DNA of 64,000 bases from Bactericera cockerelli (taxonomy: Eukaryota; Arthropoda; Insecta; Hemiptera; Triozidae), in NCBI GenBank assembly GCA_024516035.1, contig CM044962.1:3459335-3523334 (forward strand). The letters run 5' to 3'. A program made the translations under genes and the position numbers. This document shows, in pieces, positions 25,377 to 45,775 of this stretch. The notes under the pieces are model-generated. The model made no database searches. It was not told where the DNA came from and saw only the letters and a list, made by a program, of their open reading frames with translations. The first letter of the stretch is position 1. Every line of letters starts with the position of its first letter.

Positions 25377-26085
25377 GGTGGCTAGTGAGGTAAATAAAAT
25401 TTGACTTGAAAATCTTTCTTTCAAACTATCCAGGATTCTGTTTTTTTACTATTTTTTTGTGCATAAAAACATGACAGTAAGTAATCAATGTCCAAAGTAA
25501 ATTTAAAATCTCAAAATTAAAAAATATAAAATCATTAAAAGCAAAAGCAAAATATATATTATTATCTCCAAGTGACTATGATAGCACTAGAAATAAAAAA
25601 AAACAATGTTTCTCCTTACCTGGCTAAGCCCAACACGATAGTTCTCCTTACCTGGCTAAGCCCAACACGATAGTTCTCCTTACCTGGCTAAGCCCAACAC
25701 GATAGTTCTCCTTACCTGACTAAGCCCAACACGATAGTTCTCCTTACCTGGCTAAGCCCAACACGATAGTTCTCCTTACCTGGCTAAGCCCAACACGATA
25801 GTTCTCCTTACCTGGCTAAGCCCAACACGATAGTTCTCCTTACCTGGCTAAGCCCAACACGATAGTTCTCTTTACCTGGCTAAGCCCAACACGATAGTTC
25901 TCCTTACCTGGCTAAGCCCAACACGATAGCTCTCCTTACCTGGCTAAGACCAACACGATAGTTCTGCTTACCTGGCTAAGCCCAACACGATAGTTCTCCC
26001 TACCTGGCTAAGCCCAACACGATAGTTCTGCTTACCTGGCTAAGCCCAACACAATAGTTCTCCTTACTTGGCTAAGCCTAACACG

Positions 26086-26294
26086 ATATTATTATTATTA
26101 TATATTATTATTATAGTATGCTTTATTAGGAGGACAGAGTAGAATGGTAACAGTATAAAATTAAGAAAAAACAAACAAATAAGAAAATAAATAAGTAAAA
26201 AAGAAAATAACAATAATGTCCTACCTAAAGGGCGGGGTTATTGCCTGTGGCAACCTATTCCACCCAACCATTTGGCAATCTCTTCCATCCAACC
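26086..26294 (-). mobile_element. LINE-type 3' tail (S9) inside the donor array, copy 1
   Basis: Runs from (ATT)n through agtatgctttattaggagg to ggcggggttattgcctgtgg and cacccaacc. Nearly identical to 26969-27175, with the same array flanks on both sides, so the block was probably duplicated together with the array. Confidence 0.8.
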
Positions 26295-26968
26295 GATAGT
26301 TCTGCTTACCTGGCTAAGCCCAACACGATAGTTCTCCTTACTTGGCTAAGCCCAACACGACAGTTCTCCTTACCTGGCTAAGCCCAACACGCTAGTTCTC
26401 CTTACCTGGCTAAGCCCAACACGCTAGTTCTCCTTACCTGGCTCAGCCCAACACGCTAGTTCTCCTTACCTGGCTCAGCCCAACACGCTAGTTCTCCTTA
26501 CCTGACTAAGCCCAACACAATAGTTCTGCTTACCTGGCTAAGCCCAACACGATAGTTCTCCTTACCTGGCTAAGCCCAACACGATAGTTCTCCTTACCTG
26601 GCTAAGTCCAACACGATAGTTCTCCTTACCTGGCTAAGCCCAACACGATAGTTCTCCTTACCTGGCTAAGCCCAACACGATAGTTCTCCTTACCTGGCTA
26701 AGCCCAACACGATAGTTCTGCTTACCTGGCTAAGTCCAACACGATAGTTCTCCTTACCTGGCTAAGCCCAACACGATAGTTCTCCTTACCTGGCTAGGCC
26801 CAACACGATAGTTCTCCTTACCTGGCTAAGCCCAACATGATAGTTCTCCTTACCTGGCTGAGCCCGACACGATAGTTCTCCTTACCTGGCTAAGCCCAAC
26901 ACGATAGTTCTCCTTACCTGGCTAAGCCCAACACGATAGTTCTCCTTACCTGGCTAAGCCTAACACGA

Positions 26969-27175
26969 TATTATTATTATATATTATTATTATAGTATGC
27001 TTTATTAGGAGGACAGAGTAGAATGGTAACAGTATAAAATTAAGAAAAAACAAACAAATGACAAAATAAATAAGTAAAAAAGAAAATAACAATAATGTCC
27101 TACCTAAAGGGCGGGGTTATTGCCTGTGGCAACCTTTTCCACCCAACCCTTTGGCAATCTCTTCCACCCAACCGA
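26969..27175 (-). mobile_element. LINE-type 3' tail (S9) inside the donor array, copy 2
   Basis: Same sequence as 26086-26294 apart from a few substitutions. It is separated from exon 12 by only one partial array unit. Confidence 0.8.
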
Positions 27176-27188
27176 TAGTTCTCCTTAC

Positions 27189-27443
27189 CTGGCTAAGTCC
27201 AACACGATAGGAGGAGGCGTCCAGGTCCAGAGAGAGCAGAATCTCCTCCACGGCGCCCCTGTCGTCCGCTGGCGGGGGCGGGGGTTGGGTGGCAGAGTCC
27301 GCCCGTGGGGTCTCGGAGCCAGGGGCGGAGTCAGCGGGCGCGGCTAGAAGGGCGTAGCGGCGGCGGAACTCCGCCAGGGGCAGATGGTGGGGGTAGCCTT
27401 GCTTGTGGAGGCGGGCTGCGGGGAGTAGCTGAGCCCCGCGCAG
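27189..27443 (-). CDS. MYO18: Myosin XVIII exon 12 (converter region)
   Basis: Encodes 85 residues, starting LRGAQLLPAARLHKQGYP and ending LDLDASSYRVGLSQ. This is the motor's converter/relay region: LRG...R..RxGYPxHxxxxEFRRRY and a closing YRVGLSQ are conserved in class XVIII myosins. Between them is a Pro/Ala-rich insert (QPPPPPADD) longer than in typical conventional myosins. Boundaries are a ctctcag acceptor at 27444 and a gtaagg donor at 27188, both phase 0. The exon is strongly GC-rich against AT-rich introns. Its 3' end is the source of the 32-bp array next to it. Confidence 0.92.
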
Positions 27444-27509
27444 CTGAGAGAAATAATTATAAACACATGAATAAAACAGTTAAAACACATTAAAAAAAGT
27501 AATAATAAT

Positions 27510-27685
27510 AATTGAGATGTTGTTGTAGCCAGCTTGGCTGCAGCTGGGGGAGTGAGTGATGGTCTCCAGCCAACTTTATTTCAAAGTTGGCTCGTCCTGA
27601 ACCACATATTTCTATGTGCGATGAACCATCATGAGGACTTGGACTTTTCTGTACAAGCCATTAAACCTTTAGGAAACTGCAAGTT
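27510..27685 (+). mobile_element. Dispersed repeat (S10)
   Basis: Copy of the element at 18930 and 34505, with the same agccaacttt...aaagttggct hairpin and the gtacaagccattaaacc end. Confidence 0.7.
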
Positions 27686-27702
27686 AAGTTACTTGTTTTT
27701 TT

Positions 27703-28185
27703 TTTGTTGACATTTTCATGTCTTTGCTCTGGCACATAACCAAAATTATGTAACGAAATTAAGTAACGAAATCATGTAACGAAATTATGTGACGAAATTA
27801 TGTAACGAAATTATGTGACGAAATTATGTAACGAAATTATGTAACGAAAAAAAAAACAACATGAAAATGTCCCAATGGTTGCAGACTCGTATGCAAGCGT
27901 TTTGACATTTTCATGTCTTTGCTCTGGCCCATAACCAAAATTATGTGACGAAATTATGTAACGAAATTATGTAACGATATTATGTAACGAAATATTGAAT
28001 TGTAAAGGGAGAGAAGAGGGAAAGTGTGTGTCATGCGCACAATGGCGAAGTATTGAATTGTAGAGGGAGAGAAGAGAGAAGGTATGTGTCATGCGCACAA
28101 TACGAAATTTGGTCAGTTGGGTTTTGGACCTTGAATAGTAAAGATGAAAATGTCCCAATGGTTGCAGACTCGTATGCAAGCGTTT
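27703..28185. repeat. Two inverted-ended units with internal (attatgtaacgaa)n arrays
   Basis: Each unit opens tgacattttcatgtctttgc, holds a 13-bp array of attatgtaacgaa/attatgtgacgaa, and closes with atgaaaatgtcccaatgg and gcagactcgtatgcaagcg. The opening gacattttcat and closing atgaaaatgtc are inverted. A third copy is at 29705-30035. Confidence 0.85.
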
Positions 28186-28231
28186 TTTTAAACAAAAATT
28201 TAACATCGCTTTCAACTGCATGGTCATATCA

Positions 28232-28318
28232 GTAGTCACCGTGGCAGAGTGAGTTAGCGCGCTAAGCATTGTACGCATGGTGACCTGGGTTCGATTCCCA
28301 GCGGGGCAGGAATTTTTT
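28232..28318 (+). mobile_element. tRNA-headed SINE head (family S4)
   Basis: Head agtcaccgtggcagagtgag ... B box gggttcgattccc. Inverted fuller copies lie at 36455 and 37640. A (CT)-rich tract follows at 28340-28480. Confidence 0.75.
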
Positions 28319-28764
28319 TTCATCTTTTTTATTATTCCTCTCCTTCTCCCTCTCTTTCTCTCTCTTTAGCCCGCCCCCTCCCTCTCTCTCTTTCTCTACC
28401 CCACCTCTCCCTCTCTTTCTCATTATCTTTCTCTCTCTCTCTTTCTCCCCCTCTTTCTCTCTCTCCCTTGTTTCCTTGTCTGGTTTAACCCACTAGCACT
28501 AGCCATTAGAAATAGGTCTGTTACCCACTGACGTCATCACTCAACATCTCATCGCATCGGTCCCGTCCTATAGGGACCGTCAGGGACGATTTAAGAATAT
28601 AATCTTTCAAACTCTTGAATAGGATTGACTATGGCTTTATCCTTTGAAAACAAGTCTGTTACCCACTCAAAATTAATTTCTTTCTACTAGCTTCTTAATG
28701 TGATATCAGGGGATAAGTGAGAACTAGATGTAGGGGAGGGCAATATGAATTTTTTTTTTTGAGA

Positions 28765-29170
28765 TCATCCTAGGGTGGCGTCATCGTGATCGATGGTAGC
28801 CAGACAGCGGAGGAATGACTCAGCACTTCTACCACTGTCTTTATAAGGAGGCTAATAATTGACAAGGATCCCCAGAACCAAGCCAATTATAGTCCAGACT
28901 AATAATTGAGAACACTTTATAAATAAAGTAATAACAGACACGTCTACATGAACAATTGAACATATAAAGAGGAAGAAAAAACAAATTTAACTTAAATAAA
29001 TAAATGTTTTTCTTTGTGTTATTATATCACATTTTAAGTGGGTAGCGCAGAATTATTGGACTTTTTCTGTTCCTAAAATATACTGATATCTTGTTGTTTT
29101 TTGCCTTTTACCAGCTACTCAGTCATCCTCAAGAGTATAAGTGGAACTCCCACATACCTCTTGCCAAAAA
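28765..29170. mobile_element. gtggcgtcatcgtg repeat (S8) and headless S4 body
   Basis: 28765-28900 carries gtggcgtcatcgtgatcgat ... gaggctaataattgacaagg, also at 40243, 44240 and 49413. 28960-29170 is the S4 body in reverse (gtgggtagcgcagaattatt, agctactcagtcatcctc). Confidence 0.65.
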
Positions 29171-29517
29171 TATTCGACTTTGTCGGGGCTTAATATTCTT
29201 CCATATCCCGTCAATCACAATCCAACATTTATGACCAGTTTTATGTGGATATAATAACCATAAGGATAGTAATTATAATCAACACAAAAACTAGAACAAG
29301 ACTGCATCCCACGACGCAAGGACCATACTTCATAGGTGTGGCCCTTAGTGTGAGATGACGACAGCCAAAAAAAACTAGCATAAGTTCAGTTAAAAATATT
29401 ATGAATTATGTAAACTGTCATTGTTATATACATTTGAACCATTTACTTGTCATGTATTAAAAAAAATAAAAAAATTATATACCATTTTTCAAAAAAGATG
29501 GCTGGATTCAGACTCAC

Positions 29518-29670
29518 CTGAGATCGGAGCAGGGGCACATTGACGAGAGAGTCAAAGGGGGCGGCAGTGGGCGCCAGGGAGCGGGTGTCCACCAGGCCTG
29601 CGTGGTGGTGGGGGAGGAGGCAGTGGGCGAACTGGAGGTGAGTGCGGCGGATGGTCTCTATGAGACTGTC
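29518..29670 (-). CDS. MYO18: Myosin XVIII exon 11 (motor, actin-binding side)
   Basis: Encodes 51 residues, from DSLIETIRRTHLQFAHCLLP to NVPLLRSQ. It matches the class XVIII segment DxLxxTxRR/K..xHFVHCFLP that follows loop 2 and precedes the converter. The conventional-myosin equivalent of the HCLLP stretch is HFVRCIIPN, and the change to HC..P is typical of class XVIII. Acceptor cccccag at 29671 and donor gtgagtc at 29517, phase 0 on both sides. It joins in frame to exon 12 (LLRSQ-LRGAQ). Confidence 0.92.
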
Positions 29671-29704
29671 CTGGGGGCGAGGAGAACAGGGATGGAATGT
29701 ATTT

Positions 29705-30035
29705 TTGACATTTTCATGTCTTTGCTCTGGCACATAACCAAAATTATGTAACGAAATTATGTGACGAAATTAAGTGACGAAATTAAGTGACGAAATTAAG
29801 TGACGAAATTATGTAACGAAATTAAGTGACGAAATTATGTAACGAAATTATGTAACGAAATTAAGTGACGAAATTATGTAACGAAATTATGTAACGAAAT
29901 TATGTAACGAAATTATGTGACGAAATTATGTAACGAAATATTAAATACGAAATTTGGTCAGTTAAGTTTTAGACCTTGAATAGTAAAGATGAAAATGTCC
30001 CAATGGTTGCAGACTCGTATGCAAGCGTTTTTGAC
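29705..30035. repeat. Third unit with a (attatgtaacgaa)n array
   Basis: Same opening and closing blocks as 27703-28185, with about 15 internal 13-bp repeats. It begins 34 bp upstream (transcript sense) of exon 11. Confidence 0.85.
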
Positions 30036-30449
30036 ATTTTTTGCTAAAACATCCCCGCACAAAACCTTGCACCACACAAATTTAATTCTAAACATATTTT
30101 TTTTTTTTAAGATGAGTGTTTTTTTATTTTTATTACTTTTTCATCATTTATTTTTTTATAAACATATAACAATTGACAAGCACAGAAACATAAATTAAAT
30201 AAAATAATATTATATACATAGATAAAGTGCTTAAAATTGTTTTTTTGTTATTTAAATTGCAGTAGAAAAGACCCAAAGTGCGCAAGCATGTGTTGGGTCT
30301 CTTATGGATATTAAAAATAAAATGTATTATATAATTTGAGTTTAAAAATATTTATTGTTAAAAATGTAATTTCCTTATTACATATTTGTAACATAGATAT
30401 ATTCTTTTTGATTTTTCCTTATAATTAGTGTTTCACAACCTTTTTTTTA
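30036..30449. other. T/A-rich intronic stretch, nothing recognised
   Basis: Long T and A runs. No coding signal or repeat ends seen. Confidence 0.5.
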
Positions 30450-30718
30450 TTTCGAAGCCGTGAAACAGGAGCTACTGTAGACGCTTGTGGGCTGTGTTGT
30501 AGCTTGCCAATTCTGTAGAATGCCTCCTCTGATGGACGAGAAGTGACACAATACTTTCCATTTAGGTGCTGGGTCAACACGAGCACACAGGAAGGTATCC
30601 CTCACAAACAACTGTAGCCAAATTTAGAATACAAATTTTCTGTCGGCTCGGGGGATCGAACCCGGAACCTTCCGCATGGCAAGCGAGTGCTTAACTACTG
30701 AGCTAATCGTGCGGTGAC
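30450..30718 (-). mobile_element. tRNA-headed SINE (S5)
   Basis: Same head (gattagctcagtagttaagc) and body as 24251-24516, with an extra cacgagcacacaggaagg segment near 30580 that the copy at 24251 lacks and 48795 retains. Confidence 0.8.
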
Positions 30719-30942
30719 AATTAGGTCCTATTATCAAAATAATTTGAAGATACAACGCTTGGCGCTTTTTTTGTAAATGATTATTTACAAAAAAGACACA
30801 CACACAAAAACAATTGTAGTAAACTCTTTATCGACATTATTTACATAGATCACAAAGGTCGGGATTACTGCCAAAGGCGATCTCTACCACCCAACCCATG
30901 ATCCTGCACCACATAGAATAATAATAATAGAATCCGGTGGAA

Positions 30943-31245
30943 GAGAAAGCCACAGGCTTTAACCTCGCCCCTTGGTTCACTACATATTCTATTGTGTTCT
31001 TTTTTTTTTCATGTCCTATTTGATGAATCTATGTAGTTGACCAATAAAGTGTTATATAATAATAATAATAAAAAATTTTTAATGGAAGGCAGGAAAAAAT
31101 CTTTCAAAGACACCCAGATGGTCCCAGATCCATCCTAACCTGGGGTGTGGGATTTCCACCCACTAAAAACCCACCTTCTCTAAAAGCTAACCGCACTTGG
31201 AACCGAAAAATATCAATTACTTCAAGTGCGGCGCTGTAGGGCACC
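30943..31245. mobile_element. LINE-type tail (S9) followed by the aatggaaggcagg repeat (S13)
   Basis: 30943-31075 runs gtggaagagaaagccacagg ... (ATAA)n. 31080-31245 runs aatggaaggcaggaaaaaat ... cacttggaaccgaaaaatatc, and is repeated at 42846-42990. Confidence 0.65.
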
Positions 31246-31365
31246 TACTGATTTCGTTGTAGTGCCCTCCCATCTCTCTCTTTTATAACTATTATCTCTC
31301 TCACCATTTTCTCTATACACTCCCAATTCTCTTTACTATAATATAATAATAATAAAACCACTTAC

Positions 31366-31634
31366 CACCGCACTCTTCACCTGCACCGGCACACTCCGCC
31401 GCTTGGCGAAGCCGCCCGTGGTGGTCCGCCTCAGACTAGTCACCCCCCGCACGGTGCCGCCCGCCCCCAAGTCATACGTCCCGCCACTGAGCCCGCCGCC
31501 CCTCGAGGAGCCCACGAGGGCGGCCAGCTGCTTGTGGGTGGAATCGGACAGAAGGGCGAGAAGGGCGCGCGGGGTGGAGGGCTCCCGGAGCTGGCGGGCC
31601 CACCCCTCCGAGTTGTACAGGACCGGGTTGGTGC
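31366..31634 (-). CDS. MYO18: Myosin XVIII exon 10 (lower 50-kDa region and loop 2)
   Basis: Encodes GTNPVLYNSEGWARQLREP at its start, closely matching the class XVIII motif GTNPVxYNxxGW. It continues through a Gly/Arg-rich loop 2 (RRTTTGGFAKRRS) to VPVQVKSAV. The exon is 269 bp: its first two bases complete a Gly codon begun in exon 9, and it ends in phase 0. Acceptor ccacag at 31635, donor gtaagtgg at 31365. Confidence 0.92.
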
Positions 31635-31689
31635 CTGTGGGCGGGGCGAGAGAGATTTATTAGTAATGAAAAGCTAAAAAAAGTTATCA

Positions 31690-31823
31690 TATTTGTGTTA
31701 ATCACTATCGTGATAGCACAACTACTCAAACTCGCTTTACTAAATCTACGCTGAAAACGGGACTTGAACCACCGACCTCCAGGTTACAAGTCCGCTGCCT
31801 TATCGATCAAGCTACTGAGGTTG
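31690..31823 (-). mobile_element. tRNA-Thr-like SINE (S2)
   Basis: Complete copy: tgtgttaatcactatcgtg ... gggacttgaaccaccgacc ... caagctactgaggttggt. It lies 56 bp upstream of exon 10. Confidence 0.85.
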
Positions 31824-31934
31824 GTGTAACGAAAAGTTAACACACTGATGTAATTCGGCGCCGAATAAATTTTCAAAGACATCCACATCAAACACCTAAT
31901 AATTATTATGGAATATAAAATAGATAATAAAAAC

Positions 31935-32400
31935 AAGAAAATACATTATTACAATACTCGTAAATACAGAAGTCTTAACTAAAGGGCGGGGTTATTGCCT
32001 ACGGCAATCTCTTCCACCCAACACTAAATGGATTGTACATCATACCATCAAATGAAAAAAAAAACAGCATTTCACCGAGATGTATGGCTACAACGACAAA
32101 GGTTGACAAGAGTTTGATGATGACCTTTACATGTCGTAAACATTTCAACCCTCTTGAAAAAAACAATACTTCTAACACCTTCCTCTTTATTTTTCTACTA
32201 TTCATCTAACTTGTCAGAAATGTTCTACAATATCACATACTTATTTTAAAATACTTCTAATTTCTACAAACGTTTCTACAAACAATTTGATTTAGATAAG
32301 AGACGAAAAACAATCGGAGCAAAAAGATTTTTTTTTTTTTACAAAAACGAACACAATACTTCCGATTTCTAATAATAGAAATTTTACGGAAGTAAAAAAA
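31935..32400. mobile_element. LINE-type tail (S9) and hairpin-ended repeat
   Basis: 31935-32027 includes ggcggggttattgcctacgg. 32285-32400 includes acaatcggagcaaaaagat and the acttccgatttct hairpin, a shortened copy of the element at 43100-43712. Confidence 0.6.
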
Positions 32401-32431
32401 AAGATGGAAAAATCTAGTCAAAAACATCAAC

Positions 32432-33855
32432 ACAGAGAATCTCACCCAGATTGTGCTGCACAATGACTCATTGACTCACCCACCCAGATTGTGCTGCACA
32501 ATGACTCACCCAGATTGTGCTGCACAATGACTCACCCAGGTATGTTCTGTTACTCATGTACATCTAGTACAACTTCTCACTTTTCTGTTTATACTAATAC
32601 TGACAATGACTCACCCAGATTGTGCTGCACAATGACTCACCCAGGTATGTTCTGTTACTCATGTACATCTAGTACAACTTCTCACTTTTCTGTTAATACT
32701 GATACTGACAATGACTCACCCAGATTGTGCTGCACAATGACTCACCCAGGTATGTTCTGTTATTCATGTACATCTAGTACAACTTCTCACTTTTCTGTTA
32801 ATACTGATACTGACAATGACTCACCCAGATTGTGCTGCACAATGACTCACCCAGGTATGTTCTGTTACTCATGTACATCTCGTACAACTTCTCACTTTTC
32901 TGTTTATACTGATTCTGACAATGACTCACCCAGATTATGCTGCACAATGACTCACCCAGGTATGTTCTGTTATTCATGTACATCTAGTACAACTTCTCAC
33001 TTTTCTGTTTATACTGATACTGACAATGACTCACCCAGATTGTGCTGCACAATGACTCACCCAGGTATGTTCTGTTACTCATGTACATCTAGGACAACTT
33101 CTCACTTTTCTGTTTATACTGATACTGACAATGACTCATCCAGGTATGTTCTGTTACTCATGTACATCTAAAACAACTTCTCACTTTTCTGTGTATACTG
33201 ATACTGACAATGACTCACCCAGATTGTGCTGCACAATGACTCACCCAGGTATGTTCTGTTACTCATGTACATCTAATACAACTTCTCACTTTTCTGTTTA
33301 TACTGATACTGACAATGACTCACCCAGATTGTGCTGCACAATGACTCACTCAGGTATGTTCTGTTATAATATGTCAATAAATATGAATATCCATCATTGA
33401 AAAAAAAAGTACAACTTCTCACTTTTCTGTTTATACTGATACTGACAATGACTCACCCAGATTGTGCTGCACAATGACTCACTCAGGTATGTTCTGTTAT
33501 AATATGTCAATAAATATAAATATCCATCATTGAAAAAAAAAGTACAACTTCTCACTTTTCTGTTTATACTGATACTGACAATGACTCACCCAGATTGTGC
33601 TGCACAATGACTCACTCAGGTATGTTCTGTTATAATATGTCAATAAATATAAATATCCATCATTGAAAAAAAAAGTACAACTTCTCACTTTTCTGTTTAT
33701 ATTGATACTGACAATGACTCACCTAGATTGTGCTGCACAATGACTCACTCAGGTATGTTCTGTTATAATATGTCAATAAATATAAATATCCATCATTGAA
33801 AAAAAAAGTACAACTTCTCACTTTTCTGTTTATATTGATACTGACAATCACTCAC
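32432..33855 (-). repeat. 105-bp tandem array of the exon 9 / 5' splice-donor junction
   Basis: About 12 units. On the minus strand each carries cattgtgcagcacaatctgg followed by gtgagtcattg. The first part encodes IVQHNL plus the split G, the end of exon 9; the second is its donor. A second ctgg|gtgagtcattgt in the same unit doubles the donor count. The rest of the unit (catgagtaacagaacatacc, agaaaagtgagaagttgta) also occurs alone at 63117-63180. Because 105 is a multiple of three, a spurious plus-strand frame stays open for 226 codons. Confidence 0.93.
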
Positions 33856-34177
33856 CTAGATTGTGCTGCACAATGAAGTGGTGGGCGCCGGGCGCCTTTC
33901 GCAACAGCCCGTGGTATTCTTTCTCGGAGAAATTGCCGAACACGAGATCGGGAAACGTCGGGGGCGACGAAGGCGAAGAGCCGACTCCGCCCGAAGTGAG
34001 TTCGTCGAGCAGCCACAGGAGTCCGGGCGGCTTCCTGTCCTGTGAGTGGGCGTGGCCTAGCGAGTTGTAGGCGGGGCCAGGGGAGGGGGAGTTGTCGAGG
34101 AGGGAGACGAGGGCGGAGGGGGAGGAGAACTCGTCGTCCGGGTCCGACAGGTCCAGGCCGGGAATCTCGATGTGTTC
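33856..34177 (-). CDS. MYO18: Myosin XVIII exon 9 (upper/lower 50-kDa junction)
   Basis: Encodes 107 residues plus one base. It starts EHIEIPGLDLSDPDD, includes PPGLLWLLDEL (the class XVIII GLxWLLDEE stretch), and ends KAPGAHHFIVQHNL, leading into GTNPV of exon 10. A Ser/Pro/Gly-rich segment in the middle (VGSSPSSPPTF) is probably a surface loop. Acceptor ccgcag at 34178, donor gtgagtg at 33855, phase 1. The 3' end is the source of the array at 32432-33855. Confidence 0.92.
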
Positions 34178-34404
34178 CTGCGGGAGCGAAAGGGATTTTT
34201 TTTTTATATATTTTTCATCTATATAAGGGACTACGACACTCTAAATATAACATAATTCTGTAAAATAAACCTACCCATTATGCCAAACTGTTGGCATAAT
34301 AGGACTACCTGTCTTGCGCTGACAGTCTAAATAAAGCACTACTTACACTTATACTTACACCACTTTAGTGGTGAAAATTGCTTCATAAAAAATAAAACAT
34401 AAGG

Positions 34405-34859: not shown

Positions 34860-35087
34860 CTGGCTGTACAGATCCTTGGGTGTCACCAGACTGCTGTGAT
34901 GAAACAGGAGACTCAGCCGCTCCTGCAGGTAGTTGAAACAGAGGTCACTGAACCCTGCCCCCAGCTGGTTGAGGCCTGTGGAGGCGGGGTTCTGGAAGCC
35001 GGGGGTGTCCACGAGGAGGAGGGAGCAGACGCTGTGGGAGGAGGAGGACAGACTCCTGTTGATGAGGCCTCCGACACTGTTGAATGC
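34860..35087 (-). CDS. MYO18: Myosin XVIII exon 8 (switch II / relay)
   Basis: Encodes 76 residues, from AFNSVGGLINRSLSS to SLVTPKDLYSQ. It contains LLLVDTPGFQNP, the switch II region. Active myosins have DIxGFE here; D-T-P-G-F-Q lacks the Glu that helps hydrolysis, as in other class XVIII motors. CFNYLQERLSLLFHH is the relay-side helix. Acceptor ttcccag at 35088, donor gtaatt at 34859, both phase 0. The first third of the exon is duplicated at 35416-35511. Confidence 0.93.
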
Positions 35088-35415: not shown

Positions 35416-35511
35416 AGAGGAGGAGGAGGGAGCAGACACTGTGGGAGGAGGAGGCCAGACTCCTGTTGATGAGGCCTCCGACACTGTTGAATGCCTGGGA
35501 ATAGAATAGAA
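35416..35511 (-). repeat. Duplicate of exon 8's 5' third with its splice acceptor
   Basis: About 90 bp matching 35015-35098 with two or three mismatches. On the minus strand it gives ctattcccag|gcattcaacag and encodes AFNSVGGLINRSL-A-SSSHSVC before running into intron sequence. It keeps an intact acceptor but no donor, so it is a decoy 3' splice site 330 bp upstream of the true one. Confidence 0.92.
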
Positions 35512-36802: not shown

Positions 36803-37071
36803 CTCCGCGTACAGATTCATGGCGAAACTCTCCACCATCTCCTGGCCACTCGCCTCTTCGGTCCCGCCGCCGCCGGGGCTCGAACCCGCGGTCCTCCGTC
36901 CCAGCGTCCCCCCCCCGCCCCCCGGGGAGCCAGGCGAGCCCCCCCCCGCGGGGCCCTGGGGACTGAACAGGGCCCGGGCCAGGGAGTCGGGGGCCAGGCC
37001 CAGCACCTTGGCGGCCCTGCTTGCGGCCCCCGGCGACTGGAACTGCCACTTCCCGCCGGCCCCACTCGAGC
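36803..37071 (-). CDS. MYO18: Myosin XVIII exon 7 (upper 50-kDa, with Gly/Pro-rich insert)
   Basis: Encodes about 90 residues, from SSGAGGKWQFQSPGAASRAAKV-type sequence to MVESFAMNLYAE. It matches the class XVIII region W..AA.LLG...EL..A.F ... EGMAxGLYxE, but carries an unusual Gly/Pro/Arg-rich insert (GPAGGGSPGSPGGGGGTLGR). Acceptor accccag at 37072, in phase 1 with exon 6 (VK-G). Donor gtgagttt at 36802, phase 0. The exon is over 70 percent GC, so both strands show long open frames; only this one fits myosin and the splice sites. Confidence 0.88.
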
Positions 37072-37639
37072 CTGGGGTAGAAAGATAACAGAGTGGACTC
37101 ATTAGTATTATTGTTTTTTTTAACACGTATGAGACGGGGTGCCCACCGGCGGGTAAAGTTTTTTTTATCAATTTCCTTTGTAACGTGACCCACCGGTGGG
37201 CACAGATAATGTTATTATTAATATATTTTTGTACTCGCCCGTCCCAATTTTTTTTTTTTTTTTTTGTCATATTTGGAACACATACCCTAATTTGAAGCCG
37301 TCCCAGCGTACAAACTATAGAAAATAGGACCCGTCTCATACGTGTTTAAATTAAATACACTTATAAATGAAAATAATAAATTAACCCAGATTATCCCACT
37401 GTCGTTCTAAAAGGATTCCTGAGTGGGCTTCGAAAACACCCCCTCGTTTTTTTTCTATTGGAGAACCTGTTTTCCCACTGTCCTTTTAAAAGGACGACTC
37501 CTCCTGGCGGAACAGCTCATCTTAGAGCGACAGTTTTTATATACATTTGTATTTGGTATCAAGAAGCAATACTGAATCCAGATATCTAAAGAACTGGAAA
37601 AAAAATCTCCAAAAAAATTCATGGGAAGATCTGGGTTAA

Positions 37640-37872
37640 GGTGTTTATTTGTGTTATTATATCAAAATTTCAGTGGGTAGCGCAGAATTATAGGACTTTT
37701 CCGTATCTATTATATCCCAAATTCTTATTTTTGCCACTAAAGCAGCTACTTATTTTTCCTCACGAAGTATGAGTGAACCCTGGACATCGAAGTACAGAGC
37801 AGAAAAAATCGTGCCCCGCTGGGGATCAAACTCAGGTCACTAAACGCTAACTCACTCGGCCACGGTGACTAA
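37640..37872 (-). mobile_element. tRNA-headed SINE (S4)
   Basis: Same family as 36455-36722; some bases of the anticodon region are deleted (ggtcactaaacgctaactc). Confidence 0.8.
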
Positions 37873-38409
37873 AAATACATTTATGTCTTATAGTTGAACC
37901 TGGGTATTAGAGAACTGAATACAATTTCCTAGGGACCTTGGAGACTGAAAAATCTCAACTTTTAAAAAATGGACATTTTGAAAATAACAATAACTCTTAT
38001 ACAATGTCAATTTCAGCTCAATCGGACTTTTACTTTGCGAGAAATGCTTAGATATGTGAAAGCTCAACTTTTAGGAAATTGACGTTTTTTTACGCCATAA
38101 CGCTTATGAGCCTGTCATTGGTAACCATGCAAAATTTCAGCTCAATCTGACTTGTGGTTCTCGAGTTTTACGCGACTAAACATACACAGAAACGAATCAT
38201 TTTATAATCTCTATATATAAATGAGAAATATAAGATAAAACCCTTGGGGAACTGCAAACTAGCCTGGCTAGTTAGGATTGGCTAGTCCGTTCTCTGTGTA
38301 TAGTCAGTCCTCTTACCCTGTAGTCTCTTACGGAAGAGAATGCCGTTGGCATTAGCACCGCCCTTGATCAAGTTTTGTTCTATTGATTTCATTTTCTATG
38401 TATTGCATA

Positions 38410-38640
38410 TCTTAATATATAAATGTCAAAGTCACTGACTGACTGACTGATCATCGCTCTACAGCCCAAACCGTAATACCTAGCGAGCTGAAATTTGGTA
38501 GGTAGCTTTGTCTTATAGTCTAGATGTGCAATAAGACGGGATTTTTCGAAATTCCCACTACAACACCTGCCATTGGCGAAAAAGAATTTTTTGCTTTCAC
38601 GGCCATGCCTCGGCCCGCAAAGCGGGCGACAGCCCGCTAG
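38410..38640 (+). mobile_element. Non-autonomous Helitron-like element
   Basis: Begins A|TCTTAATATATAAATG, has (ACTG)n and the imprint gagctgaaatttggtaggta. It ends with the hairpin gcccgc-aaa-gcgggc, then gacagcccgctag|T. Ends and hairpin spacing fit Helitrons. A solo 5' end (tctctatatataaatgag) lies at 38207. Confidence 0.75.
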
Positions 38641-38682
38641 TATTCTAAGTAAATAAAACTTGATCCAATATGTTTAACAGTC

Positions 38683-38708
38683 TCTTACCTTTGACGGCAT
38701 GAAATAGT
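38683..38708 (-). repeat. Small duplicate of the exon 6 donor junction
   Basis: The plus-strand tctcttacctttgacggc recurs here about 85 bp below the true junction at 38774-38793. On the minus strand it reads gccgtcaaag|gtaagaga, the last codons of exon 6 with its donor. Confidence 0.85.
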
Positions 38709-38782
38709 TAATGTCCTAGTTAGGATTGGCTAGTCCGTTCTCTGTGTATAGTCCTTAGTCCTCTTACCCTCTGGTCTCTTAC

Positions 38783-38927
38783 CTTTGACGGCCCCGGCCG
38801 CGCCCAGATGCAGCACTGCGGCCAGCAAGGAGAACACGGCCTTCAGTTCGGCCTCAGTGGTTCCCAAAGTGGTGAGCGCGGCGCACAGACGCACAAAGTC
38901 CATGAGGCCTCTCTGCTTGTCCTCGTG
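38783..38927 (-). CDS. MYO18: Myosin XVIII exon 6 (upper 50-kDa helix)
   Basis: Encodes 48 residues plus one base, HEDKQRGLMDFVRLCAALTT through VLHLGAAGAVKG. The stretch LxxLG.....L.AV...LAAVLHLGAAGA is diagnostic: LAA(I/V)xHLGAAGA is the class XVIII form of the conserved myosin HLGN segment. Acceptor cttccag at 38928, donor gtaagaga at 38782, phase 1 into exon 7. Confidence 0.93.
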
Positions 38928-38983
38928 CTGGAAGGAGACCACAGGGGTTAGGTCAGTTCTCGAGCTACGCGTCAGTACTTAGA

Positions 38984-39182
38984 TAATAATAATATCGCCT
39001 TTATACTACCCGATTAGGACTACTACAGTCCCATTATTCCAGCAGTAAGTCCAAGACGTATTATTATATGGTAAAAATCCCAAATGGGATGATAACTTGT
39101 CATGTCACGGTTGGGTTTCGAACCCACGACCTCTTGAATATCTGGATTCACGCCTTTACCACTAAGCTACCGGGACAGACAT
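38984..39182 (-). mobile_element. tRNA-headed SINE (S6)
   Basis: Complete body and head (ggtttcgaacccacgacc ... agctaccgggacag). Confidence 0.85.
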
Positions 39183-39496
39183 AATCAGCGTTTACTATGC
39201 CTTTATTTTTTTTAAAGTCATAGTTATCATATTTATATCACTTTCGTAATATCACAACTACTCAAACTCGCTTTGCACTTTTAGATTATTATTATTTGAA
39301 CAGAAATGTAAGTATTTTATTAAATCAAAGATCCTTAGTTCAACACCTTAGCAGACAAATTATTTTTGTTCGGCTAGAATTTTAAAATAGCAAAACTATG
39401 TTGAATATATTTTTACTGCCACAGGAATCATTGGCGCTTTCCTGATATCAGTCCTTTTTGATCAAACCAATTATTGACAAAAACCACAACAACAAC

Positions 39497-39873
39497 ATTC
39501 TTCAGTGGAAGGTTACCAGGCGAGGTTAATGCTCAAAGCATTTTCTATCACCTAACCCTGAGAGTCTTATTATTATGTGCTAACATATTCAAATTAATGA
39601 GGAAAAATTAATGCACTGGGTGGGATTCGAACCAACAGATCCCTACGCTACCTGGATTTCCATACTAGCGCGTTAACCACTGCCGACCGGTGCACTACAA
39701 TTTAAGTTTTTTACATTTAAGTTAAGTTATCATATTTGTGTTAATCACTTTCGTGATATCACAACTACTCAAACTCGCTCTCTAATACCTAAATCGACGC
39801 TGAACCGGACGTGAACACCGACCTCCAAGTTACAAGTCCGCCCCGCCTTATCGATCAAGCTATTGAGGTCGGT
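39497..39873 (-). mobile_element. S1 and S2 SINEs in tandem
   Basis: 39497-39697 is S1 (cttcagtggaaggttacc ... gattcgaaccaacagatcc). 39727-39873 is S2 (tgtgttaatcactttcgtga ... aagctattgaggtcggt). Confidence 0.8.
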
Positions 39874-40047
39874 TAGAGCATTTTACATATAAAAATAAGG
39901 GTAGCCACATGCTTTAACCTCGCCCCTTGGTTCACTACATATTCTATTTATTATTATTATTATTATTTTTTTTTATTTTTTTTAGCATGTCCTATTTTGT
40001 TGAATAAAGTAGTTGACCAATAAATAGTTAAATAATAATAATAATAC

Positions 40048-40218
40048 CTTGGAGTAGGGTGTGATAAACTGGTTCGCCTCCCCACCGCCCGTGATGGCGT
40101 CCAGCATAAGCTCCTTCCTCAGAGTGCTGTCAGCGCCTGAGAGGAGCCGGTAGAACACGTGGAAGTTGCTTTCTCCCTCTGACCTGCGCACCACACGCTG
40201 CTTATCCAGCAGTAGAAG
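40048..40218 (-). CDS. MYO18: Myosin XVIII exon 5 (upper 50-kDa)
   Basis: Encodes 57 residues, from [19 protein letters not shown] to FITPYSK. It fits the class XVIII run LLEKxRVARR..E..FNVFY.LL.G.DS.LR.EL exactly in order after exon 4. Acceptor ccccag at 40219, donor gtatta at 40047, both phase 0; the donor is weaker than its neighbours. Confidence 0.92.
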
Positions 40219-40500
40219 CTGGGGAAGTAAATTATCATCATCATCATCATAGAGTGGCGTCATCGTGAACGATGGTAGCCAGACAATGGAGAAATGACTC
40301 AGCACTTCTACCACTGTCTTTACAGGGAGGCTAATAATTGACAAGGGCCCCCAGAACCAAGCACTTATCAACCAGAACCAATTTATCATATTTGTGTTCA
40401 TAATGCTAAATTTTAACTGAACTTGGGACGCGAACCAGCGACCAGCTGACCAGCCTTATCGATCAAGCTACTGAGGCCGGTAGAAGTTGGGAAAGTAAAT
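40219..40500. mobile_element. S8 repeat plus S2 SINE between copies of the exon 5 acceptor edge
   Basis: S8 (agtggcgtcatcgtgaacga) and an S2 fragment (ttatcatatttgtgttcat ... gctactgaggccgg) are flanked by tagaagctggggaagtaaat (40213-40232) and tagaagttgggaaagtaaat (40481-40500). This looks like a 20-bp target-site duplication that spans the splice acceptor of exon 5. Confidence 0.7.
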
Positions 40501-42504
40501 ATTACTCTGGTGTAAACAACCTGTATGAGTCAGCCGTTATCTGAATAAGTCAGCAGTTACTTGTATTATGAGTCAGCAGATACCTCTATTATGAGTGAGC
40601 AGTTAACTGAAGTATGAGTCAGCAGATACCAATATGTATCATAAGTGAAATATACGCGTCAGCAGTTACCTGTATGAGTCAGCAGACACCTGAATGTTTT
40701 ATCCATTACCTATATGAGTCAGCACATACCTGTATGTGCTGACTCATACATATATCGGCTATGGACATGAAAGGAGCCTAGAAATTGGATCTGGGCGTCC
40801 ATGTAATCCTCTCACCACCGTGATTTAGGCATCAATACCTAACTCACGGACACGGAATTATTATTATTACTGTTGGAGTAAAGGGACTTTTCAGTCTTAC
40901 CTCGGCAGTATAAACAAGGTGTATATTCTTATCTAAGGTATATTCTATGAGATATAGTTTACCTGTGTTTTGAGTCGGCAGTTACCTGTATGAGTCGGCA
41001 GTTAACTGTATTATGAGTCTGCAGTTACCTGTATTATGAGTCAGCAGTTACCTGTATGAGTCGGCCGTTACCCGAATAAATCAAATACCAATATGTATCA
41101 GAAGTGAAATATACGAGTCAGCAGTTACCTGTATGTTTTGGTTGTTACCAATATGAGTCAGCGAACATACCTGTTTGAGTCAGTCGTTACCTGCATAAAT
41201 CAGCAGTTATCTGAGGTATGAGTCAGCAGTTATCTACATATATGTATCAGAAGTCAAATATACAAGTCAGCAAATACCTGTATGAGACATAATTTACCTC
41301 TGTTTTGAGTCAGCAGTTACTTGTATTATGAGGCAGAAGTTACCTGTATTATGTGTCAGCAGTTACCTGTATTATGAGTCAGCAGTTACCTGTATTATTA
41401 GTCAGCAGTTACCTGTATTATGAGTCAGCAGTTACCTGTATTATGAGTCAGCAGTTACCTGTATTATGAGTCAGGAGTTACCTGTATTATGAGTCAGCAG
41501 TTACCTGTATTATGAGTCAGGAGTTACCTGTATTATGAGTCAGCAGTTACCTGTATTATGAGTCAGCAGTTACCTGTATTATGAGTCAGCAGTTACCTGT
41601 ATGGCGCCGGTCATGTCAAAGTCCAGGGAGAAGATGTGGGACAGCCGGGTGGCGTTCAGGTTGAGACAGGTGCTTATATTATGAGTCAGCAGTTACCTGT
41701 ATGAGTCTGCAGTTACCTGTATTATGAGACAGGTGCTTGTATTATGAGTCAGCATTTACCTGTATGAGTCTGCAGTTACCTGTATTATGAGTCAGCAGTT
41801 ACCTGTATTGTGAGTCAGAAGTTACCTGTATTATGAGTCAGCAGTTACCTGTATGAGTCAGCAGTTACCTGTATTATGAGTCAGCAGTTACCTGTATGGC
41901 GCCGGTCATGTCAAAGTCCAGGGAGAAGATGTGGGACAGCCGGATGGCGTTCAGGTTGAGACAGGTGCTTGTATTATGAGTCAGCAGTTACCTGTATGAG
42001 TCTGCAGTTACCTGTATTATGAGACAGGTGCTTGTATTATGAGTCAGCAGTTACCTGTATTATGAGACAGGTGCTTGTATTATGAGTCAGCAGTTACCTG
42101 TATTATGAGACAGGTGCTTGTATTATGAGTCAGCAGTTACCTGTATGAGTCAGCAGTTACCTGTATTATGAGTCTGCAGTTACCTGTATGAGTCAGCAGT
42201 TACCTGTATGAGTGGACAGTTACCTGTATTATGAGTCAGCAGTTACCTGTATGAGTCAGCAGTTACCTGTATGAATCAGCGGTTACCTGTATTATGAGTC
42301 AGCAGTTACGTGTATGAGTCAGCAGTTACCTGTATGATGAGTCAGCAGTTACCTGTATTATGAGTCAGCAGTTACCTGTATGAGTCAGCAGTTACCTGTA
42401 TGAGTGGGCAGTTACCTGTATGATGAGTCAGCAGTTACCTGTATGGTGAGTCAGCAGTTACCTGTATGAGTCAGCAGTAACCTGTATGATGAGTCAGCAG
42501 TTAC
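40501..42504 (-). repeat. 20-23-bp tandem array of the exon 4 / 5' splice-donor junction, with two larger exon 4 copies
   Basis: Dozens of units; the minus strand reads (at)atacag|gtaactgctgactc. atacag is the end of exon 4 (..S-I-Q) and gtaactg is its donor. Inside the array, 41600-41672 and 41893-41968 carry about 70 bp of exon 4 coding sequence (LNLNATR, SHIFSLDFDMTGA) followed directly by IQ and the donor. They lack 15 bp that encode the ASASI-type stretch of the real exon. S12 SINE-like sequence interrupts the array at 40752-40866. Confidence 0.94.
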
Positions 42505-42657
42505 CTGTATGGACGCCGAGGCTATGGCGCCAGTCATATCAAAGTCCAGGGAGAAGATGTGGGACACCCGGGTGGCGTTCAGGTTGAGACAGGTGCGGGC
42601 GTGACCGAAAGCTTCCAGCACGATGGCGATGGCGTTCAGTTTGTCTGGCGTCAGGAT
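42505..42657 (-). CDS. MYO18: Myosin XVIII exon 4 (switch I region)
   Basis: Encodes 51 residues, from ILTPDKLNAIAIVLEAFG to GAIASASIQ. It contains LNLNATRVSHIFSLDFD, the counterpart of the switch I motif NxNSSRFGK. As in other class XVIII myosins the second Ser is replaced (N-A-T-R) and the final GK is missing, which argues against normal ATP turnover. Acceptor ccacag at 42658, donor gtaactg at 42504, phase 0. Confidence 0.93.
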
Positions 42658-42845
42658 CTGTGGAGGATACATGTCGGGGAGTTAGGAGTTAGCATATTTG
42701 TGGCAATCACAATCGCGACAGCACAATTGCTCAAACTCGCTTTACAATAAAATCCTCTGCAAGAACGAGACTATTACCTATTACGATTTTTTTCTGTCTG
42801 ATGTGTTATTAAATAGCTTGTTTTGTCTGATTTTTTTTTTTTTTT

Positions 42846-42990
42846 TTTAATGGAAGGCAGGAAAAAATCTTTCAAAGACACCCAGATCCTGGGGTGTGGG
42901 ATTTCCACCCACTAAAAACCCACCTTCTCTAAAAGCTAACCGCACTTGGAACCGAAAAATATCATTACTTCAAGTAATGATATTTTTCGT
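42846..42990. mobile_element. aatggaaggcagg repeat (S13) ending in a near-perfect palindrome
   Basis: Copy of 31080-31245. It ends with cgaaaaatatcattactt, one base, then the inverse aagtaatgatatttttcg. Confidence 0.75.
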
Positions 42991-43099
42991 TTGTCTGATG
43001 TATTATTAAATAATAAAAAAAAAAACACCGCCAATTATGGACACAATACTTCCTCGTGATTATTTCACATTGTATACACGTGTGAATTTTGAGATTTTA

Positions 43100-43712
43100 T
43101 ACTAAATCACTTGTATCTCCAAAACCGCTTTTCTTCAAATTTGTTTTATATGGTAGAACACTATTTTTTATACATTCTAAATTCTACAAAAAAAATCTGT
43201 TTCGGCAAGTAGTGGACCTTATTTTTTGACTTTTTTGTCCAAAATTTCGGATTTTCTTAAATATCAGAGTTAAATTATAATGAATTAAAAAATAAATAAT
43301 ATTAATATCATATTTAAAACAATAATATGCATATACATACAAAATTTCATCAAAATCGGGTGTACCGTTCACGAGATATAAGCGTTTAAGTAAAAAGTTA
43401 GTGGTCAGGCGCATGGTCTCTTTCACCCAGAACCGCTAGTACGAATTTGATGAATTTAAAATGGGACCATCTACAGAACGTCTCCTATATGTGTGCAAAA
43501 TTTCATCAAAATCCGTTGAGCAGTTTCCGAGATTTGCGCGTTACAAGGAATATTTTTAATAGACCGATAGACGAACATAAAACGAAAGTTGCTCAGGAGG
43601 TTATGAAACGTCCAGAAATATGAAAAATCGGAGCAAAAAAATATTTTTTTTTACAAAAACGAACACAATACTTCCGATTTCTAATATTAGAAATTTCTCG
43701 GAAGTAATATCT
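43100..43712. mobile_element. Long member of the acttccgatttct hairpin family
   Basis: AT-rich body with imprints such as gttcacgagatataagcg and gcagtttccgagatttgcg, ending gaacacaatacttccgattt and its inverted cggaagt. Probably a non-autonomous DNA element; no transposase seen. It ends 22 bp from exon 3. Confidence 0.55.
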
Positions 43713-43733
43713 CGAGTTGATGGCTAGCCTCAC

Positions 43734-43933
43734 CTTGCTCGTGGAGTCAGCAGTGAGGGCGAGGTAGCGGAGGGCGTGCTGCATGCTGGTGGTCTTGCCC
43801 GCCCCTGAGCGGCCCATGGGCACCAGAGCATGGTCCCGGCGGGTGCCCAGCAGACTTCTGTACAGGGCCTGGGCGGTGGCGAATATGTGGGGGGCGTGTC
43901 TTCGCTGCTGCAGCCCTTGAACAACTGGGCCAC
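43734..43933 (-). CDS. MYO18: Myosin XVIII exon 3 (P-loop), with a one-base frameshift
   Basis: Encodes VAQLFKGCSSEDTPP in one frame, then HIFATAQALYRSLLGTR through GRSGAGKTTSMQHALRYL to TADSTSK in the next. The P-loop GRSGAGKTT replaces the usual GESGAGKT, as in class XVIII. The exon is 200 bp where 201 (67 codons) is needed. The slip is in a run of six Cs (gacacgCCCCCCacat on the minus strand) where seven would keep DTPPHIF in frame. Acceptor cctcag at 43934 and donor gtgagg at 43733 are intact, so an assembly error is more likely than a dead gene. Confidence 0.92.
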
Positions 43934-44030
43934 CTGAGGGGAGAAGGGCGAGAATTTTCACTAAGTGGTTCAGATCAGGGCGGGCTATAACCGGGACAGA
44001 CTATAATAACTTTGTTGATTACATCATAAT

Positions 44031-44358
44031 AATAATACTCTTTAGTGGAAGGTGACCACCCGGCGAGGTTAATGCTCAAAGCAATTTCTACCACCTAACC
44101 CTCAGAGACATTATTATGTAGTCACAAACTCAAATTAATGAGGAAAAATTCATGCACTGGGTGGGATTCGAACCAACGGATCCCTACGCTACCTGGATTA
44201 CCAGACTAGCGCGTTAACCACTTGACTACCAGTGTACATCATCATCATAGGGTGGCGTCATCGTGAACGATGGTAACCTGACAGTGGAGGAGTGACTCAG
44301 CACTTCTACCACTGTCTTTACAAGGAGGCTAATAATTGACAAGGGCCCCCAGAACCAA
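44031..44358 (-). mobile_element. S1 SINE followed by an S8 repeat
   Basis: 44031-44237 is a complete S1 (ctctttagtggaaggtgacc ... ttgactaccagtg). 44240-44358 is S8 (ggtggcgtcatcgtgaacga). Confidence 0.8.
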
Positions 44359-44625
44359 GCCAATGCTTGTCTTCTCCCTGTTTATAGTCCTCCAGCTAGA
44401 CTGCTGGTCTACTCCCTGTTTATAGTCCCCAGCCAGACTGCTGGTCTACTTTCTGTTTATAGTACCCCAGCCAGACTGCTGGTCTACTCCCTCTTTATAG
44501 TGCCCCAGCCAGACTGCTGGTCTACTCCTGTTTATAGTCCCCCAGCTAGACTTCTGGTCTACTTTCTGCTTATAGTCTCCCAGCCAGACTTCTGGTCTAC
44601 GACCTGTTTATAGTCCACTACAAAC
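44359..44625. repeat. 38-bp minisatellite, about seven copies
   Basis: The unit is ccagccagactgctggtctac plus tccctgtttatagtcc. Partial copies lie at 34725, 38280 and 49540. Confidence 0.9.
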
Positions 44626-45083
44626 ATTACATTACAAAAAAAGAATAACGTTCAATGTTGTTTGCTTCTAATATTACTATTGACCAGACTGCCTGGAGAC
44701 AGCTGGTAAGAAATGTCGACCCCACATGAGCGGAATTAAAGACAAAGTAAAAGAAGAAGACCAACCCTTTCTCAGCAGTACCTCAGCAAATAAGCTGAAT
44801 TGGAATCAACCATTCAGATGTATACTTTTCATTTTGATTTATTTGTGTATTATTCCAAAATAAAAAAAATAATATAATTGTATCTCGATGTTTTTCTCTT
44901 ATGTACTAAACTATCCTCAATTAGAGAATATTATTGTCCGATAAATAAATAAAAAATTTGTTTGCACACTCTAATAAATTAATAAAAAAAAATCCAAATA
45001 AAGGTATACCTATTTGTTTATTTGTTATGCCAACCCTTCATCTCACCTTATGGCCATCTCTTCCACCCAACCTCGTGTCTTAC
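44626..45083. other. AT-rich intronic stretch, nothing recognised
   Basis: Contains a taagctgaattggaatcaac segment also seen near 22615. No gene is seen. Confidence 0.5.
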
Positions 45084-45245
45084 CTTGTCCGAGTAGATGG
45101 CTAGGGGAGCCACAGGGTTGAGTACGATCGCCGTGGGGCCCGCGTTCGTGTGGATGAGATTAGAAGCATAGCGCAGGCGCAGAGTATGCAACACGCTCGA
45201 CTCGTTTAGATGCCGCGCGGAGCAGATGTCCTCACACGTGTCGTA
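45084..45245 (-). CDS. MYO18: Myosin XVIII exon 2 (start of motor)
   Basis: Encodes 54 residues: YDTCEDICSARHLNESSVLH, then RYASNLIHTNAGPTAIVLNP and ending LAIYSDK. It matches LxxLNESSVLHxLRxRYxxxLIxTxAGPxxxVLNPxxxxxIYS, the first conserved motor block. Acceptor cgcccag at 45246, donor gtaagac at 45083, phase 0 on both sides. The first half with its acceptor is repeated upstream at 45246-45775. Confidence 0.94.
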
Positions 45246-45775
45246 CTGGGCGGGGTTACACTGGGGAGATTAGACGCAGAGTATTAGAGGCAAGGGATTA
45301 GAGGGATTAGAAGCATAGCGCAGGCGCAGAGTATGCAACACGCTCGACTCGTTTAGATGCTGCGCGGAGCAGATGGCCTCACACGTGTCGTACTGGGTGG
45401 GGTTACACTGTGGAGATTAGACGCAGAGTATTAGAGGCAAGGGATTAGACGCATAGCGCAGGCGTAGGGTATGCAACACGCTCGACTCGTTTAGATGCTG
45501 CGCGGAGCAGATGTCCTCACACGTGTCGTACTGGGCGGGGTTACACTGTGGAGATTAGACGCAGAGTATTAGAGGCAAGGGATTAGACGCATAGCGCAGG
45601 CGTAGGGTATGCAACACGCTCGACTCGTTTAGATGCTGCGCGGAGCAGATGTCCTCACACCTGTCGTACTGGGCGGGGTTACACTGTGGAGATTAGACGC
45701 AGAGTATTAGAGGCAAGGGATTAGAGAGAATAGACGCATAGCGACGGCGCAGAGTATGCAACACATTGCAACACG
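45246..45775 (-). repeat. 139-bp tandem array of exon 2's 5' half with its splice acceptor
   Basis: Three further full units (from about 45300, 45440 and 45580) and a partial one near 45730. Each holds a cgcccag-type acceptor, then tacgacacgtgtgagg and about 84 bp of exon 2 (YDTCE, CSAQHLNESSVLHTLRLRYAS), then about 50 bp of intron including ggattagacgcagag in plus orientation. The copies lack the exon's 3' half and donor. Most read CSAQH where the real exon reads CSARH. Confidence 0.94.

Follow-up and report, generated by a model that had tools for sequence, protein, structure and literature searches.

Tandem copies of exon–intron boundaries in the myosin-XVIIIa gene of Bactericera cockerelli and in other genes of its genome

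The window analyzed here, a stretch of 64,000 nucleotides of Bactericera cockerelli (Hemiptera, Triozidae; positions 3,459,335 to 3,523,334 of contig CM044962.1, hereafter C8), belongs to an assembly of 565 Mb in 1,032 contigs and carries on its minus strand a gene of myosin-XVIIIa, the introns of which contain tandem arrays of copies of the gene's own exon–intron boundaries. Thirteen exons were found in the window. Its best-matching relatives are unconventional myosin-XVIIIa proteins of arthropods (49% across the full query), and the Pfam domains Myosin_head and SH3_Myosin-XVIIIa are present. Exons 1–12 (48025 to 27189) have canonical AG/GT borders and consistent phases, with a single frame break; all 12 spliced exons, as well as exon 13, which follows an intron of 25,101 bp, were matched by tblastn with 120 myosin relatives. 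The frame break lies in a homopolymer of C in exon 3, a place at which gene copy B, described below, differs and scores as a single open stretch; the break points either to an error in the sequence or to decay of the gene copy in the window.

Junction copies were sought by BLAST of the 24 junctions, 120 bp each, against the window in gene sense, and same-strand copies spanning the junction were counted. The donors of exons 4, 12 and 9 gave 50, 36 and 14 spanning copies, respectively, and the acceptor of exon 2 gave three (45743–45624, 45587–45486 and 45449–45348); Tandem Repeats Finder (TRF) reported rows at 25610–26970, 32472–33876, 40519–42511 and 45302–45725. An earlier note, made from the letters of the window, had described donor arrays at the start of the introns after exons 4, 9 and 12 and an acceptor array of exon 2 at the end of the preceding intron, and both descriptions are borne out. 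The exon 4 array is degenerate at its exon-distal end, and the exon 12 array is interrupted twice by other sequence. These four large arrays exceed chance. The dozens of donor-like sites expected in this one gene are likewise present, the three donor arrays containing, with the true sites included, 33 CAGGTAAG, 47 ACAGGTAA and 20 [AG]GGTGAGT. A stop codon is reached 51, 5 and 69 bases past the true donors of exons 4, 9 and 12, so that the use of a distant donor would normally yield a broken message.

Table 1. Exons of the myosin-XVIIIa gene and copies of its junctions, in window positions.
Feature	Position	Strand	Evidence
Exon 1 (first found; SH3-like part of myosin-XVIIIa head)	47810..48025	-	splice borders, tblastn, Pfam SH3_Myosin-XVIIIa
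Exon 2 acceptor array, 138-bp unit (acceptor and 5' half of exon 2)	45261..45743	-	TRF, BLAST
Exon 2	45084..45260	-	splice borders, tblastn
Exon 3 (frame broken in C run 43894-43889)	43734..43933	-	splice borders
Exon 4	42505..42657	-	splice borders, tblastn
Exon 4 donor array, 20/23-bp units (exon 4 end and GTAACTGCTGACTCAT)	40520..42504	-	TRF, BLAST
Second exon 4 piece inside the exon 4 donor array	41895..41975	-	tblastn, BLAST
Exon 4 piece inside the exon 4 donor array	41600..41680	-	tblastn, BLAST
Exon 5 acceptor, possible copy, 21 bp, 90%, E 0.006, may be chance	40480..40500	-	BLAST
Exon 5	40048..40218	-	splice borders, tblastn
Exon 6	38783..38927	-	splice borders, tblastn
Exon 6 donor, single exact 19-bp copy	38680..38698	-	BLAST
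Exon 7	36803..37071	-	splice borders, tblastn
Exon 8 acceptor and 5' part of exon 8, single 74-bp copy, 97%	35435..35508	-	BLAST
Exon 8	34860..35087	-	splice borders, tblastn
Exon 9	33856..34177	-	splice borders, tblastn
Exon 9 donor array, 26-bp junction units and dispersed element, giving 105- and 133-bp units	32440..33855	-	TRF, BLAST
Exon 10	31366..31634	-	splice borders, tblastn
Exon 11	29518..29670	-	splice borders, tblastn
Exon 12	27189..27443	-	splice borders, tblastn
Exon 12 donor array, 32-bp unit (last 21 nt of exon and GTAAGGAGAAC)	25611..27188	-	TRF, BLAST
Exon 13 (ends approximate)	1956..2090	-	tblastn

Smaller copies had also been claimed for exons 5, 6 and 8, giving a duplicated boundary in 7 of 13 exons. 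The claim stands for exon 8 (score 81) and exon 6 (score 19) and is doubtful for exon 5 (score 13): at nine of 300 random positions taken outside the exons and listed arrays, a spanning copy with a score of at least 15 is also present within 1 kb, and the exon 5 copy, falling below this cut, was dropped as a secure case. The exon 6 and exon 8 copies are real, yet no commoner than the local background. A duplicated boundary is secure in six of the 13 exons, exon 5 being the insecure seventh. Matches to the exon 8 donor (31 bp, 84%, E 0.006, more than 9 kb away) and to the exon 10 acceptor (two copies at E 0.83) were taken as chance. By a stricter test with ungapped 24-mers, a local copy was found at 5/24 junctions of the window vs. 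16/96 in other myosin genes, a measure by which the window does not stand out within its genome.

About 68 bp of the exon 9 unit (33245–33312) represent a dispersed element lying inside the intron, for which at least 38 matches outside the copies of this gene were found when 40 of 930 candidates were scored (E 2.5e-23 or better, mostly 92–99%); its relatives in the window lie at 57027–57090 and 63122–63181. The exon 12 unit is confined to four places in the genome, all on C8, and a dispersed satellite was accordingly rejected for its array. At one of them, G000:C8:23759947–23761083, the unit is present and exon 12 itself was not matched; the array there apparently stands without its exon.

A DNA search of the same genome showed the presence of two further copies of the gene on C8, B (~3.83–3.85 Mb) and C (~0.41–0.42 Mb), the window gene being copy A. 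Exon identities to A in B and C, respectively, are 98 and 98% (exon 2), 99 and 99% (exon 4), 99 and 98% (exon 8), and 96 and 91% (exon 12). The exon 12 array is 1,569 bp long in A and 1,063 bp long in C, and is absent (0 bp) from B; in B, the exon 12 donor is followed directly by sequence like the post-array flank of A, which indicates a clean expansion of the array in A and C or its clean loss in B. Extra exon 2 copies number 3, 8 and 9 in A, B and C. At exon 9, the donor and the shared distal flank lie 1,408 bp apart in A and 401 bp apart in B, where other sequence is inserted beside the donor. The exon-distal part of the exon 4 array is identical between A and B at 302 of 306 positions with no gap; its exon-proximal part comprises 1,204 bp with 40 donor-like sites in A and 425 bp with 11 in B. 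In this array, the only one with an alignable far part, turnover adjoins the exon. The exon 8 search found the acceptor copy beside copy A only.

Both members of a gene pair on contig C1 (L016 and L018) carry the 94-bp donor array with the same distal end, but the number and order of units differ. Copy number thus varies among the gene copies A, B and C and between L016 and L018. The arrays are thus unstable minisatellites, hard to explain by assembly error. Collapse or expansion of repeats in the assembly is hardly credible as their source, since separate gene copies share the far ends of arrays and differ in unit number; furthermore, the arrays sit in genes on several contigs and hold diverged copies and interruptions by other sequence, even if the frame break in the exon 3 homopolymer indicates that errors can occur locally.

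The arrays are not peculiar to one myosin gene, as the earlier note had it. Junction-derived arrays were found in 9 of the 20 10-kb stretches around other myosin exons, the homology test being positive for L013–L016, L018, L019, L023 and L026, and for L012 through its copies; in the other 11 stretches none was classified as junction-derived, partly because few introns are resolvable there. In the gene of non-muscle myosin II (up to 84% identity to insect proteins), the exons ending in YRSMLQ, SEDYS, TKEQ and RIHFQ each lead into a run of their own donor copies, ~270–1,220 bp long, and copies of its own acceptor precede the exon starting with VDYSAEKW. Dynein heavy chain is represented by 10 stretches, among which junction-like TRF units were seen by eye in L030, L032, L033 and L036; the first three count as junction-derived in the formal test, which L036, an acceptor array to the eye, failed. 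Other arrays are present in L031 and L034, and no TRF array above a score of 70 was detected in L029, L035, L037 and L038. The arrays of RPB2 (L039) read by eye as one donor and one acceptor array; the last exon of this gene also occurs three times in a row (L039 6451–8240, blocks 80–85% alike). Arrays in L012, L020, L021, L027 and L028 lie outside the introns counted below or were not classified as junction arrays.

The frequency of junction-derived arrays was estimated in 85 introns, namely, 12 of the window, 48 of other myosin genes, 24 of dynein and 1 of RPB2; the 60 introns of the window and other myosins were defined by spliced protein alignment, and those of dynein and RPB2 by profile hits and splice signals. 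Arrays were merged into families within each intron before counting. A junction-derived array is present in 20 of the introns, and 21 of the 45 arrays (15 donor, 6 acceptor) are of this origin, compared with 4.12 expected under uniform seeding of array-free introns (P 1e-12) and 7.46 under a harsher null that excludes half of each intron (P 1e-7). For the separate sets, the counts are 4/13 in the window (expected 0.50), 14/27 in other myosins (3.05) and 3/5 in dynein with RPB2 (0.56). Successive classifications gave 16/48 by coordinate crossing, 18/42 by unit homology, 21/45 by merged homology with dynein and RPB2 included, and 21/41 after dispersed repeats were masked and the four arrays lying on them dropped (5.0 expected, P 2e-11). 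Junction arrays occupy 16,534 of 124,531 intron bases, and other arrays 4,704. In these introns, overlap with junctions lies above the uniform expectation, and the shared cause suggested in the earlier note is therefore reasonable. The periods of donor arrays tend not to be multiples of three, an impression from lists in which TRF gives several periods per array.

The arrays are best read as 'mirage' minisatellites, i.e., tandem duplications of exon–intron boundary DNA within the adjoining intron, and to this explanation as a whole we assign a probability of roughly 0.6. If a short stretch spanning a junction were duplicated in tandem, with short direct repeats assisting, one intact exon edge would remain alongside a spare copy in the intron, and the change would for this reason be tolerated; the array would then lengthen or shorten via slippage or unequal exchange. 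Short direct repeats were noted by eye at the exon 12 donor (CTATCG..GTTGG), the exon 2 acceptor (TCTAATC) and the exon 9 donor (ATTGT..CAG), as expected for such events. The preference for edges may derive partly from their higher G+C content (0.454 within 20 bp on either side of exon edges vs. 0.325 in the intron background), and partly from the persistence of exon edges while intron interiors are replaced; the exon, being under selection, would perhaps preserve one good copy from which an array could regrow. Splicing probably still takes place at the copy joined to the exon body, with the spare sites mostly ignored.

A different account needs no junction-linked process: minisatellites would arise everywhere, and those at edges would survive through the turnover of intron interiors by mobile elements and the G+C richness of edges. 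We regard it as unlikely, though it has to be weighed seriously. More than half of the arrays (24/45) in the same introns are not junction-derived, 1–33% of each locus is similar to sequence at two or more other loci, and 8 of the 20 arrays that do not cross a junction are no more than 50 bp away from an exon edge (1.9 expected, after masking), which would indicate a bias toward edges generally and not toward splice sites. Against it, the excess survives both masking and the exclusion of half of each intron, and weighting by G+C, computed by hand, lifts the expectation only ~1.4-fold.

Several observations, some of them shared with this account, weigh against the reading of the arrays as junction duplications. 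Contexts shifted into the intron by 40, 80, 120 and 200 bp hit 23, 22, 23 and 20 arrays, as many as junctions do, which results from the length of junction arrays. By plain coordinates, duplication is no commoner at junctions (16/96 in other myosins) than in intron interiors (0.10–0.47 by 48-bp bin), and the excess depends on counting each array once, with one seed in collapsed introns. Non-junction units are also richer in G+C than the background (0.383 vs. 0.325), and composition accounts for part of the excess. Dynein with RPB2 taken alone is weak (3/5, P 0.01; 0.057 under the harsher null). The introns are a convenience sample from genes selected by profile searches for myosin, dynein and RPB2; it includes related gene copies that are not independent (L016/L018, L015/L017, L009–L010/L011 and L037/L038), some predicted introns may be wrong, three exon pairs were unplaced (one in L029, two in L034), and some introns of L024/L025 lie between apparently alternative exons. 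In 3 of 14 arrays, those of exons 4 and 9 of the window and that of L014, copies farther from the true junction are more diverged from it (p < 0.05), and a significant fall was seen in none of the 14, which favors the reading; against it, the gradient is not significant in 10 and undefined in one.

A further proposal is that exon edges anchor a directional, genome-wide growth of introns, the arrays being regenerated at their exon-proximal side, perhaps in connection with transcription or splicing, and the spliceosome having adapted to choose the exon-joined site out of dozens of near-identical ones. We consider this doubtful; if true, a large share of intron length would consist of copies of the gene's own splice junctions.

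The splice pair is altered in 0–3 copies per array (14 arrays of 4–60 copies each). Selection might retain spare splice sites, either as a safeguard should the true site mutate or to regulate splicing. In raw counts over 337 copies of 11 donor arrays, the GT pair is altered at 7/674 positions, compared with 272/6,650 for all other positions between −9 and +13; the corresponding figures are 46/2,022 for the remainder of the donor consensus and 210/3,954 for the flanks. The copies, however, do not count as independent: distinct changes number three at the two GT positions (1.5 each) vs. ~4.3–4.5 per position elsewhere, and the rest of the consensus (4.5) fares no better than the flanks (4.3). 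GT conservation, strong in raw counts and weak in distinct changes, was consequently not accepted as proof of selection, and in sister gene copies arrays are absent or shorter. Selection on spare sites is possible; as the explanation of the arrays it appears improbable.

The earlier note had also suggested RNA-templated events, in which intermediates linked to the spliceosome or lariat, or pre-mRNA, are copied into DNA. Clustering at splice junctions and the lean toward donors (15 donor, 6 acceptor; binomial P 0.08) are in line with this, the lean being equally explicable by selection against extra acceptors. A fixed position of the unit relative to the splice site was rejected, since unit ends, judged by eye, vary between genes. 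Within the units, exon DNA and the intron DNA next to it keep their genomic order, and the change in copy number between gene copies resembles ordinary unequal exchange. The suggestion gained no direct support. The copies contain intron sequence and, compared between gene copies, behave like ordinary unstable minisatellites; we hold an RNA-templated origin to be very improbable.

Other repeats and reading frames were annotated in the same material. A 38-bp tandem unit (CTGGTCTACTCCCTGTTTATAGTCCCCCAGCCAGA) forms a dispersed, minisatellite-like family (window 44364–44616 and 49534–49638; L015 1578–1652). Arrays of the 13-bp AAATTATGTAACG (window 27743–27849, 27938–27993 and 29741–29939; L011 3752–3806; L031 498–618) are apparently carried by a dispersed element. 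An open frame of 307 amino acids at 51931–52854 on the plus strand of the window, with no Pfam match at E 0.001, is perhaps from a mobile element. A muscle-type myosin gene (L024/L025) contains several alternative versions of one exon (YNGFEQL, FNGFEQL).

What was an amphioxus curiosity of a few genes is apparently common in the genes sampled from one arthropod genome. The arrays provide many natural replicates for the choice by the spliceosome of one site among dozens of near-identical neighbors, and for the growth or origin of introns from duplicated splice signals. Gene annotation and short-read mapping may fail at introns that bear them.

Ordinary intronic minisatellites, or variable number tandem repeats, are characterized by tandem units, unstable copy number and degenerate ends; they are not expected to begin in exon ends, whereas 21 of the 45 arrays described here do. 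Introners are dispersed elements that carry their own splice sites and form introns; the exon 12 unit is not dispersed, and the exon 9 unit includes ~68 bp of a dispersed element inside the intron. The literature searched yielded no report of tandem arrays at splice junctions in an arthropod, and the word 'splice' does not occur in the main text of PMC3152781. The Rogers model, in which introns are gained through tandem duplication of AG/GT proto-splice sites, and cases of it in Drosophila and human are described in passages of PMC2891723 and PMC2812944. An intron gained in this way would be new at its position and flanked by the two duplicates; the array units match one intron end only. In both systems DNA with splice signals is duplicated, but the cases given there mostly begin within coding sequence and make a new intron, whereas here the junction of an existing intron is copied and the intron is lengthened.

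The closest known system is that of the amphioxus 'mirage' minisatellites, described in passages of PMC3087553 and PMC3902484 for Adh3 and the globins BflGb6 and BflGb9, and reportedly present in TnC, with PGBD5 similar; the original report on amphioxus Adh is cited in PMC3087553 as Nucleic Acids Research (NAR) 2002. According to these passages, mirages are tandem duplications across exon–intron boundaries at either intron end, with units of ~10–160 bp that keep AG/GT in many, not all, cases; copy number differs between haplotypes and is somatically unstable, and regular splicing is undisturbed. The arrays of B. cockerelli likewise cross exon–intron boundaries (in the window and in 20/85 introns), affect both intron ends, with 15 donor and 6 acceptor arrays, and mostly keep AG/GT, GT being altered at 7/674 positions in 11 donor arrays. 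The amphioxus work includes reverse transcription PCR (RT-PCR) and data on somatic instability, while the present analysis covers genome sequence. Unlike the mirages as described there, those reported here belong to an arthropod, occur in several unrelated genes and reach ~60 donor copies in the longest arrays, with the excess at exon edges measured and three gene copies compared. Accordingly, the arrays are of the mirage kind, which has already been described; new are the phylum, the number of genes, the measured excess at exon edges and the exon-proximal change in one array.

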